NCBI GenBank assembly: GCA_035561515.1
Contig: DATMXP010000040.1
Location: 1 to 64,000, forward strand
From: Terriglobales bacterium
GTDB taxonomy: Bacteria > Acidobacteriota > Terriglobia > Terriglobales > Acidobacteriaceae
Length of the DNA: 64,000 nucleotides
Reading direction: 5' to 3'
The notes under the pieces are model-generated. The model was not told where the DNA came from and ran no database searches. It worked only from the letters and a program-made list of their open reading frames with translations. The translations under genes were made by a program, and so were the position numbers. Positions 14,110 through 18,530 of the stretch are shown one piece after another. The number at the start of each line of letters is the position of its first letter. The stretch's first letter is position 1.

Positions 14110-15219
14110 TTATTGAATCTCCAACATCCGGTCCAGGGCCACTCGCGCCCAGTGCTTCACATTGTCCCGAACTTTGATCTGGTTTACGACATTACCTTCG
14201 ACCAGATTCTCCAGCGCCCAGCATAGGTGCTGGGGCGAGATTCGGAACATGGTCGTGCACAAGCACCCCGCATCATCCAACGTGATTACCATTTTATCCG
14301 CAGTTGATTTCGCCAGTCGATTCACCAGGTGAATTTCCGTGCCCACCGCGAATTGAGTCCCCGCCGGCGCATCGTTGACGATCTTAATCAGCCTTTCGGT
14401 CGAGCCGATGGCATCGGCCTTCTGGCACACCTCGAGCCTGCACTCCGGGTGAACAATCACCTGAATACCGGGATATTTAGCACGGACTTTATCCACGTGC
14501 TCCGGCAGGAACCGCTGATGTACCGAGCAATGTCCCTTCCAGAGAATCACCTTGGCCTTGCGCAGGCGGTCCGCCGTCACGCCTCCTTGCAACTGGAACG
14601 GATCCCACACCACCATCTCATCCAGCGGGATTCCCAGCGCGTATCCGGTATTCCGCCCCAGGTGCTGATCGGGGAGGAAGAACAACTTTTCGTTCTTCGA
14701 GAAGCCCCAACGGAAAGCGCCATTCGCGTTACTGCTGGTGCACACCAGCCCCCCGCGTTCGCCGCAGAATGCCTTGATAGCCGCCGTCGAGTTCATGTAG
14801 GTGATCGGCGTAATACCTTGGCCGTCGTCGCTCGTCAGGCCCAGCCGAACAAATTGCTCCCACGCATCCTCAACCTGGGTAATCTCGGCCATGTCAGCCA
14901 TGGAGCATCCGGCGTTCAGGTCGGGCAGCAGAGTAGCCTGCCCCGGACGCGCCAGCACATCCGCGGACTCCGCCATGAAATGCACGCCGCAGAAGACGAT
15001 GTATCGCCCATCAGCTTTCGCAGCTTGCTGCGCAAGTTTGTAGGAATCTCCGGTGAAGTCGGCAAAGCGAATCACTTCATCGCGCTGATAATGGTGGCCC
15101 AGGATAACGACGTCGCGCCCAAGTTGCTCCTTCGCAGCGCGAATCCGCTCATCCATCGTGTGGTCAGGAAGGATAAGATAATTGTCCAGCGTACAAGCTG
15201 TGGTAGTAACTGTTCCCAA
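14110..15219 (-). CDS. nadA: Quinolinate synthase
   Basis: 369 residues from TTG 15219. NadA condenses iminoaspartate with dihydroxyacetone phosphate to quinolinate, the first committed precursor of NAD, using a [4Fe-4S] cluster. Hallmarks: VILGHHYQRDEVIRFAD near the start; the cluster cysteines in FCGVHFMAESA, VHPECRLEV and DDAGCLCTT; and the triplicated-domain length. nadB and nadC are not in the window. A structured, repeat-containing leader lies upstream (15255-15360). DUF2203 follows as the second gene. Confidence 0.95.
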   Translation of the reverse strand: MGTVTTTACTLDNYLILPDHTMDERIRAAKEQLGRDVVILGHHYQRDEVIRFADFTGDSYKLAQQAAKADGRYIVFCGVHFMAESADVLARPGQATLLPDLNAGCSMADMAEITQVEDAWEQFVRLGLTSDDGQGITPITYMNSTAAIKAFCGERGGLVCTSSNANGAFRWGFSKNEKLFFLPDQHLGRNTGYALGIPLDEMVVWDPFQLQGGVTADRLRKAKVILWKGHCSVHQRFLPEHVDKVRAKYPGIQVIVHPECRLEVCQKADAIGSTERLIKIVNDAPAGTQFAVGTEIHLVNRLAKSTADKMVITLDDAGCLCTTMFRISPQHLCWALENLVEGNVVNQIKVRDNVKHWARVALDRMLEIQ

Positions 15220-15260
15220 TTTTACGTCTCGCTTTCAGTCCTGCGGATTCATGCCGCCGG

Positions 15261-15352
15261 ACGGGGTTGTTGAAAGCATCCACTGGCTCCAGTAGGTCCA
15301 CATTCCCTCGTGATTCCTCAGGACCGACCTACGGGGTTGTTGAAGCCCGTAG
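15261..15352. repeat. Direct and inverted repeats upstream of nadA
   Basis: A 14-base sequence (ACGGGGTTGTTGAA) occurs at 15261-15274 and again, exactly, at 15331-15344. The second copy sits in a perfect 7-bp hairpin, CTACGGG (15329-15335)/CCCGTAG (15346-15352). TAGGTC (15293-15298) and GACCTA (15326-15331) form another inverted pair between the copies. It may be a REP-like element or an operator for nadA. The rest of the 15220-15478 gap shows nothing else recognisable. Confidence 0.5.
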
Positions 15353-16105: not shown

Positions 16106-16219
16106 AACTCGATCCCAAAATTATTATAACCGATAATGTATCTTTTTACAGGTTAGTGCAATCTACTCCAGAAGTGACGCGCTTTCCTAAACTCTCGTGT
16201 GCGTCGCAAAAGGAGAACC

Positions 16220-17098
16220 ATGATCCGCTATCAGTTCGCGAATGTGAATAACCGCAAGATCTTCTACCGCGAAGCCGGTCCGAAGGACGCCCCTAACATC
16301 CTCCTGCTCCACGGCTTTCCCAGCTCTTCTCACATGTACCGCAATCTGATTCCGGCTCTTGCGGAAAAGTACCACGTCATTGCGCCTGATCTTCCTGGCT
16401 TCGGCTTTTCCGATGCTCCCGAGCGCGTCAACTTCCAATATAACTTCGCCAATCTTACGAAAGAGATCGACGCGTTTACGCAGACGGTTGCGCTTAAGCA
16501 GTTTGCGATCTACGTCTTTGACTATGGTGCTCCCGTCGGCCTGCGCCTCGCCCTGGCTCATCCCGAGCGAATCACGGCTATCATCACGCAAAACGGGAAC
16601 GCCTACCTTGAAGGTCTAAGCGATGCGTGGAATCCCATCCAGAAGTACTGGAGCGATCCGACGCCCGAAAATCGCGCGGCGCTGAAGGACTTCCTCCATT
16701 TCGAAGGTGTGAAATTCCAATACGTATTCGGTGTTAAGGATGAGAGCTTGATTGCTCCTGAAAGCTACGCTCTGGACGCGGCTTTACTCGACCGTCCCGG
16801 CCAGGACGACATCCAACTCGACTTATTCCTTGATTACGCAAGCAACGTTGCTTTGTACCCTGCGTTCCAGGAATACTTCCGGACGAAACGTCCGCCAGTT
16901 CTGGCGGTATGGGGAAAGAACGATCCGCTCTTTATTCCGCCGGGTGCGGAAGCGTTTCTTCGGGACGTGCCTGATGCCGAAATAAGCTTTTTCGACACCG
17001 GCCACTTCGCGCTTGAAACCCATCACCGCGAGATCAGTGGGAAAATCCTTGATTTCCTCGGAAGGAAGTTGTCCCAGAAGGTTTCCACTGCCGCATAA
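16220..17098 (+). CDS. Alpha/beta hydrolase with Asp nucleophile (epoxide hydrolase/haloalkane dehalogenase-like)
   Basis: 292 residues from ATG 16220, with AGGAG a few bases upstream. The oxyanion-hole motif HGFPSSSH and a nucleophile elbow VFDYGAPVG put Asp at the nucleophile position, as in epoxide hydrolases and haloalkane dehalogenases rather than Ser esterases. The catalytic His is in DTGHFALE. The dehalogenase Trp next to the nucleophile is Tyr here, so the substrate is uncertain. It is cytoplasmic, with no signal peptide. It is divergent from the CGNR regulator and ends in a strong terminator. Confidence 0.82.
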   Translation: MIRYQFANVNNRKIFYREAGPKDAPNILLLHGFPSSSHMYRNLIPALAEKYHVIAPDLPGFGFSDAPERVNFQYNFANLTKEIDAFTQTVALKQFAIYVFDYGAPVGLRLALAHPERITAIITQNGNAYLEGLSDAWNPIQKYWSDPTPENRAALKDFLHFEGVKFQYVFGVKDESLIAPESYALDAALLDRPGQDDIQLDLFLDYASNVALYPAFQEYFRTKRPPVLAVWGKNDPLFIPPGAEAFLRDVPDAEISFFDTGHFALETHHREISGKILDFLGRKLSQKVSTAA

Positions 17099-17163: not shown

Positions 17164-18189
17164 CTATCCCCCGATGTGTACCATCGTCCTCGACGCCGGC
17201 ACAAAGTCTGGCTCTCCGATATGATGTCGCGCTTCCTTTTGCATCACAACTCCGCGGATGTATTCCGAGAGTTGCTCGTCATCATCTCCCCGCCGCATGC
17301 GCTGATACAGATCGTGCTCGATCACTGAAAACAAACACGTCCGGATCTTGCCATCGCTCGTCAGTCTCACCCGACTGCAATGCCCGCAAAACGGCAAGGA
17401 CACTGGCGCTACAATGCCTATCTCTCCCAGGCCATCGGCAAAACGATAGCGTCTCGCCGTCTCACTGCGACCGCGCTCGATCTCTACCAAAGGCACGAAC
17501 TTCTCCGCCATCGCCCGTACAATCTCATCCAGCGTGACCACCACCTCCGGCGACCACACTCTGTCCTCTTCGAGCGGCATGAACTCGATGAACCGGACGA
17601 CGACTCCCTCTTCCCGCGCGAACTTGCCGAACTCAACGATCTGGTCTTCATTGAAGCCGCGCAGCAACACGCAATTCACCTTCACCGGTTCAAGGCCGAT
17701 GCGCTTGGCTTCGCGGATACCTGCCACCACGTTTTCGTAACCTCGTTCCACTCGCGTGATGCGCGCGAATTTCGCCGGGTCGACCGCATCCATACTGACC
17801 GTCACCCGCCGCAGTCCCGCATCTTTCAGCGGCTTCGCCATTTCCGCCAGCAGATGCCCATTCGTGGTAATGGCAATGTCGAGTTCCCTGCCGTCAATCG
17901 TTCTCAACCGGCTGAGTTCTCGCACAAATTCAATGATCCCGTTCCGTAACAACGGTTCGCCGCCAGTCAGTCGGATCTTCTCGATCCCCTGACGGACGAA
18001 CAGTCGCGCCATGCGCAGGTACTCCGAAAACGGCAGCTCCGGAAATTGCGCTCCATCATTCCCAGTCCGGCAATACACACACCGGTAATTGCACCTGTCT
18101 GTAATGGCGATGCGCAGATCGGTGATCAGGCGCCCGTACTTGTCGATGAGGCGGGACGTTTCCACGCGCGGGATTTCAACAATGCTCAT
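17164..18189 (-). CDS. moaA: GTP 3',8-cyclase MoaA
   Basis: 341 residues from ATG 18189; an in-frame GTG at 18225 would add 12. It is a radical SAM enzyme for the first step of molybdenum cofactor synthesis, turning GTP into 3',8-cyclo-GTP. The N-terminal cluster motif is CNYRCVYC. The C-terminal second cluster is FCGHCSRVRLTSDGKIRTC. The chain ends in the conserved Gly-Gly tail (VHIGG) needed for activity. Other moa genes are not in the window. A Moco riboswitch-like leader precedes it, so expression is probably repressed when cofactor is plentiful. Confidence 0.95.
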   Translation of the reverse strand: MSIVEIPRVETSRLIDKYGRLITDLRIAITDRCNYRCVYCRTGNDGAQFPELPFSEYLRMARLFVRQGIEKIRLTGGEPLLRNGIIEFVRELSRLRTIDGRELDIAITTNGHLLAEMAKPLKDAGLRRVTVSMDAVDPAKFARITRVERGYENVVAGIREAKRIGLEPVKVNCVLLRGFNEDQIVEFGKFAREEGVVVRFIEFMPLEEDRVWSPEVVVTLDEIVRAMAEKFVPLVEIERGRSETARRYRFADGLGEIGIVAPVSLPFCGHCSRVRLTSDGKIRTCLFSVIEHDLYQRMRRGDDDEQLSEYIRGVVMQKEARHHIGEPDFVPASRTMVHIGG

Positions 18190-18256
18190 ACCAGTATGTC
18201 GAACGAAACTGCGCGGAAAAGACACGAGGCGCGGTCGCTACAAAGAAAACCGACGC

Positions 18257-18346
18257 GAAAGGCCAGCGTTTCCTTTCCAAACGGGAGGCGGGAAGGTTTC
18301 CCTTCGCACCCTCGGCCGGATCTCCGGCACCGTCACTGCGCCCATG
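18257..18346 (-). ncRNA. Moco (molybdenum cofactor) riboswitch in the moaA leader
   Basis: Read on the minus strand, the leader contains GCAGTGACGG, a hairpin GCCGG-AGAT-CCGGC, a purine-rich GAGGGTGCGAAGG, a GAAA-capped stem, and GCCTCCCGTTTGGAAAGG ending in CGCTGG. These blocks, in this order and spacing, match the enterobacterial moaA leader, including the near-invariant CCTCCCGT...GGAAAGG core. Established knowledge: this motif senses Moco and controls moaA. Boundaries are approximate. About 67 bases lie between it and ATG 18189. Confidence 0.8.
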
Positions 18347-18530
18347 GCGTTGCTTTAGGCCGCAGCGATCGGAAACTCTTCAATACTGTAGTGGATTCCG
18401 CCGGAAAGTAAAAGTTTCCCCTTTCGTCCCAGAATCGCGAGATGCTGCCGTAAGTTGGCGTGTCCGAAGTACCCAATTAGTCGCTATCGTCACAAAATCC
18501 GGTGCACTATTCTGTTGTGACAAGGACGCC

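Follow-up and report, generated by a model that had tools for sequence, protein, structure and literature searches.

Genomic context of moaA and its upstream RNA element

The DNA analysed here, referred to as the window, is a 64,000-nt stretch of a Terriglobales bacterium genome (GCA_035561515.1, contig DATMXP010000040.1), and the features considered below are collected in Table 1. The moaA product was identified as a MoaA equivalog by TIGR02666 (344.5 bits, cut-off 284.05) and is the only close MoaA in the genome, the next-best match having 28% identity. The organism is one of the Acidobacteriota, the best protein relatives coming from MAGs named Acidobacteriaceae, Sulfotelmatobacter and Angelobacter. 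An alpha/beta-hydrolase gene (16199-17098) is convergent with moaA, and moaA thus looks like a single-gene unit. Elsewhere in the window, nadA (14110-15219) is directly preceded by two tandem matches to RF03013, the nadA riboswitch (15231-15347, minus strand, 50.5 and 40.0 bits), and a second tandem RF03013 pair is present in locus L101.

Table 1. Features of the moaA leader region of the window
Feature	Position	Strand	Basis
Moco riboswitch aptamer	18254..18386	-	full-length RF01055 match; also whole-genome search
P1 5' strand, GUUUCC	18371..18376	-	pairs with 18268-18273 in cmscan alignment
GGAAAGGAAAC, junction and P1 3' strand (GGAAAC, 18268-18273); same letters enter P1alt	18268..18278	-	alignment, folds
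GUGUCUUUUCC, pyrimidine-rich P1alt 3' strand, complementary to 18268-18278; putative switch strand	18215..18225	-	duplex energy, fold
P1-to-moaA leader, 78 nt, no Shine-Dalgarno core before ATG; putative expression platform	18190..18267	-	
moaA, GTP 3',8-cyclase, 341 aa, ATG start	17164..18189	-	TIGR02666; next gene downstream of aptamer

A covariance-model search of the whole window returned RF01055 (Moco) with a score of 70.8 bits (E 4.5e-15), against a gathering cut-off of 36 bits, and with complete coverage of the model (positions 1-135 of 135). A whole-genome search found a single RF01055 copy, at the same site, and a search confined to 18150-18420, run at a lax threshold, detected no other family. 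The initial annotation, made from the sequence alone, had described a Moco riboswitch upstream of moaA with its conserved blocks in order, and these blocks are indeed found on the minus strand (GTGACGG, the CGAAGG-GAAA-CCTTC hairpin and CCTCCCGTTTGGAAAGG); the covariance-model search that it proposed bears out the assignment, and the wrong pairing of helices that it named as a refuting sign was not seen, the model helices being formed, with four non-standard pairs (eight marks in the alignment). The interval given there, 18257-18346, lies inside the true match of 18254-18386 but misses its 5' third, including the P1 5' strand (18371-18376) and the 5' part of P2. In the RF01055 alignment, a GAAA loop of the GNRA type caps P4, CCUAA...AUGG in P2 has the appearance of a receptor-like bulge, and P3 (GCCGGAGAUCCGGC) is present. 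The association with moaA also stands, as the match adjoins the MoaA equivalog and a MoaA-like reading frame lies downstream in 117 of the 118 RF01055 matches that were oriented and read in the searches of the same family and of close relatives. The window element is almost certainly a genuine Moco-family aptamer and, as an aptamer, is ordinary, being one more member of the known family RF01055.

The presence or absence of P3 bears on the identity of the ligand: P3-containing Moco RNAs have been described as going with Moco genes and P3-lacking ones with tungsten-cofactor genes, which is a correlation (Regulski et al. 2008, PMC2408646). Profile searches of the genome recorded PF00384 seven times, PF02738 once and PF01314 (aldehyde ferredoxin oxidoreductase) not at all; the control search for this last profile was positive in 5 of 14 known genomes. 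With P3 in the RNA and no tungsten aldehyde oxidoreductase found in the genome, Moco is the likely ligand, an assignment that draws on family membership, P3 and gene context and is correlative.

Distribution among relatives

RF01055 scored above the cut-off in 105 of 300 genomes from the same family, in 19 of 61 close relatives (a set that overlaps the 300 family genomes) and in 55 of a sample of 396 genomes from across the phylum. In ten named isolates (L097, L100, L102, L104, L108, L109, L116, L117, L121 and L124) no RF01055 element was found within 3 kb of moaA. From the 118 matches, 106 were kept, after removal of eight with a MoaA identity below 60% or no MoaA, three with a late-beginning MoaA match and one without the TGGAAAG anchor; 102 of these leaders passed a filter for N, length and near-identity. 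Subsets of the 102 served for two-state energies (85 leaders), start openness (73) and motif tests (93), and a simple rule was used to place the moaA starts in the relatives. From the phylum matches no more than 30 loci were made, and the 29 beside the window's own were read.

A predicted alternative helix in competition with P1

In the minimum-energy fold of 18176-18386, P1 is absent and GGAAAGGAAAC pairs with GUGUCUUUUCC instead, forming a helix here called P1alt, with a pairing probability of 0.88-1.0 at 10 of its 11 positions in the window fold. Taken by itself, the duplex has an energy of -13.0 kcal/mol, which 100 dinucleotide shuffles place at p 0.03. A fold made to keep P1 is less favourable by 8.8 kcal/mol (-69.9 vs -78.7), a figure that precedes any gain from ligand or tertiary contact, the folds leaving out the tertiary contact that steadies the aptamer. 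The stability of the whole window leader is not unusual (z -0.74).

The same pairing recurs across the family. At least 6 of the 11 nt are paired downstream in the minimum-energy fold of 92 of 102 leaders, compared with 38% of shuffled leaders, and when one leader per MoaA cluster is taken the counts are 66/76 at 90% identity (shuffles 45%), 38/43 at 85% (shuffles 42%) and 20/23 at 80% (shuffles 37%). Duplex energy reaches p<=0.05 in 38 of 102 leaders where about five are expected, the other 64 being individually non-significant. The control leaders numbered 37, of which 29 came from the phylum search and eight had been excluded from the test set; in most of them the ribosome site is in P1. 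Among these 37, P1alt-type pairing was seen in 18, which is no excess over shuffles (50%), and six were positive by duplex energy. In three of these six (L199, L201 and L202) moaA or another frame starts later and a CCTTTCC or CTCCTTCC strand is present, so that a P1-competing strand is found elsewhere as well, in those cases near a Shine-Dalgarno.

In the family leaders, the YTTYC motif is concentrated 35-50 nt after TGGAAAG; counted per 5 nt, it peaks at 61 at 40-44 nt and amounts to 9 or fewer beyond 55 nt, while A drops to 4-5% at +25 to +45. Covariation of P1alt is weak, the strands of a leader pairing only slightly better with each other than after swapping (whole helix, p 0.065; outer part, p 0.017), as is expected with an aptamer strand that is nearly invariant, being held by the aptamer. 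The consensus fold of an unanchored MAFFT alignment of the leaders yielded no structure (RNAalifold energy 0.0); the leaders are too variable in length for plain alignment, and anchored tests were therefore used. A blunt count in 80 named loci, which carries little weight, gave 2.0 YTTYC motifs per 150 nt before moaA in the 39 with an aptamer-like string and 1.1 in the 41 without, and perfect CCTTTCC in 4 of the 39 and 3 of the 41. P1alt very probably represents a real, selected feature.

Genome G092 holds both kinds of leader, with a start codon next to P1 in L026 and P1alt in L128. In four Moco RNA copies (L037, L129, L184 and L026), P1 letters of the GGAAGG type are soon followed by a start codon; three of the copies precede a divergent MoaA (33-40% identity) and the fourth no MoaA. 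In many long-leader relatives (including L038, L046, L134, L143, L170, L182 and L190), long inverted repeats of short degenerate units (e.g., GCTAAATGC or CGACTAACGAC) end at the moaA start codon, the unit varying by genome.

Output of the switch

Several arrangements were considered for what P1alt acts upon. The classic three-strand switch is rejected, as a third strand competing for the pyrimidine motif was found in 0 of 93 leaders at p<=0.05 (median z +0.57). CsrA control is likewise rejected, a search of the genome with PF02599 (CsrA) having given no match. What does change between the two states is the leader itself: averaged over 73 leaders, positions +25 to +50 have an unpaired probability of 0.45 if P1 is held and of 0.32 if it is not. 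Taken alone, the window reverses this trend over the same interval (0.42 with P1 held, 0.49 without), and its P1-to-start-region stretch as a whole follows it (0.47 and 0.39). C exceeds G in 90 of 102 leaders, and also in the 60 nt upstream of the aptamer in 70 of 102. A rut-like pattern is present in 69 of 102 sense leaders vs 24 of 102 antisense; this pattern is a rough one, and the C-over-G excess in itself biases the antisense control. The genome encodes a rho gene (725 bits). A leader that is freer with P1 held, the excess of C over G and the rho gene, with no other target found, point to Rho loading as the likeliest output.

The following sequence of events is proposed. Without ligand, GGAAAGGAAAC would leave P1 and pair with the conserved pyrimidine strand about 40 nt on, so that P1alt conceals the latter. 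Binding of Moco would hold P1 (GUUUCC/GGAAAC) in place and leave the pyrimidine-rich, G-poor leader more single-stranded. The freed pyrimidine strand would itself be the output, most likely by loading Rho, which would then stop transcription before or early in moaA; the net effect, with a direction of control predicted from this model, would be that plentiful cofactor lowers MoaA synthesis. The control of moaA is probably not of the E. coli kind, a point absent from the initial annotation. The whole explanation, a P3-containing Moco-type riboswitch that switches through P1alt and lowers MoaA by a Rho-type output, has in our judgement about an even chance of being correct, and output through Rho, taken by itself, a chance slightly short of even. 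It is possible, and suggested here tentatively, that one Acidobacteriota family uses a two-strand Moco riboswitch in which an alternative P1 helix replaces ribosome-site masking and the ligand exposes a pyrimidine strand on which Rho would load, neither a terminator nor an anti-Shine-Dalgarno being involved.

A translational output, in which the pyrimidine strand alters ribosome loading at a moaA start lacking a Shine-Dalgarno, e.g., through ribosomal protein S1 or a standby site, is unlikely but is the best of the alternatives. Of 94 leaders, 89 lack a Shine-Dalgarno core in the 4-18 nt ahead of the nearest start and five have one, several genes of the window also being without such cores, and the motif lies 26-159 nt before the start (5th-95th percentile; median 84; window 25 nt). 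This distance varies widely, however, and the predicted openness of the start region shows no net change between the two states (17 leaders more open and 17 less, n=73), so that masking of the moaA start is rejected. If the free strand aided ribosomes, moreover, MoaA would increase with Moco, contrary to what happens in E. coli.

Intrinsic termination, in which a small GC-rich hairpin lying between the two strands and leading into a U-rich tract would act in the ligand-bound state, is less probable still as a general output. Terminator-like sites occur in 16 of 102 leaders where 7.1 are expected from shuffles, and the inner loop is modestly more stable than its shuffled versions (median z -1.0; z below -1.5 in 29 of 90), but 86 of 102 leaders have no site and the window is at chance level (one site found, mean of 1.0 expected). 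Pairing of a U-tract with upstream RNA, moreover, is possible only once the polymerase has passed. As the sites are twice as frequent as in shuffles, some members may use intrinsic termination.

A leader reading frame coupling moaA translation to the riboswitch is very improbable: in the window, a CUG frame at 18266, after the aptamer GGAAAGGA, can be seen by eye to run to the ATGA of moaA, its UGA overlapping the moaA AUG, and an NTG frame ends at the moaA start in 49 of 94 leaders, but with 37.3 expected the excess over shuffles is small, a CUG start is required and a start codon at that place is not conserved in relatives. Least probable is control in which P1 hides the moaA ribosome binding site (GGAAAGGA), as described for E. 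coli (PMC2408646) and as the start codon just after GGAAAGGAG would allow in most of the 29 phylum-level loci, since in the window no ATG, GTG or TTG lies at ribosome distance from GGAAAGGA and masking of the E. coli type in P1 is ruled out by a moaA start 78 nt past P1 and an in-frame TAG (18238-18240) that bars a longer protein.

Other Moco RNAs of the phylum

In 13 of the 29 phylum loci judged by eye (L204, L207, L208, L210, L212-L214, L217, L218, L220, L222, L223 and L227), a Moco RNA precedes a long frame with a TonB-dependent receptor plug; most of these RNAs appear to be without P3, and most have a start codon just after P1. The plug was confirmed by Pfam in all three that were tested (L220, L223 and L227). 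This arrangement of genes suggests that outer-membrane uptake of molybdate or tungstate may be under cofactor control in other Acidobacteriota. TonB does not appear in the 2008 Moco RNA description (PMC2408646). In L199-L202, L206 and L211, Moco RNAs stand before frames resembling ModA/TupA-type binding proteins, and in L206 and L211 a plain terminator hairpin has a 5' arm, CTTTCCT, able to pair with the aptamer AGGAAAG (both by eye).

The string Acidobacter is absent from the main text of the 2008 description (PMC2408646), and no paper combining Moco riboswitch names with Acidobacteri was found in the open-licence literature. The output stage is a variant that was not found described in either. 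The aptamer itself adds to a known family and no more. The value lies in the platform: a single ligand class is coupled to different outputs in sister lineages, and within genome G092 as well, which makes it possible to ask how the output of a riboswitch changes around a constant sensor.

Comparison with known systems

The window RNA is like the E. coli moaA Moco RNA in belonging to the same aptamer family, in having P3 and a GNRA loop and in standing before moaA, as far as the E. coli element is set out in its 2008 description, which places the ribosome site within P1 (Regulski et al. 2008, PMC2408646). It differs in that the E. coli moaA starts at once, whereas in the window 78 nt separate P1 from the start and P1 appears to be taken apart by an alternative helix. 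According to a review (PMC7652899), CsrA acts on the E. coli leader, whereas the window genome has no match to this regulator. The P3-lacking Moco RNAs, proposed in the 2008 account to respond to the tungsten cofactor (PMC2408646), fall under the same family model as the window RNA, which in contrast has P3 and resides in a genome with no PF01314 enzyme. A likeness is proposed to the pe20 Mbox of M. tuberculosis, in which, as reported (PMC12810186), the ligand state decides a Rho stop in the leader; the Mbox senses Mg2+, acts via a small ORF and has been tested at the bench, whereas in the window system we infer the action of Rho.
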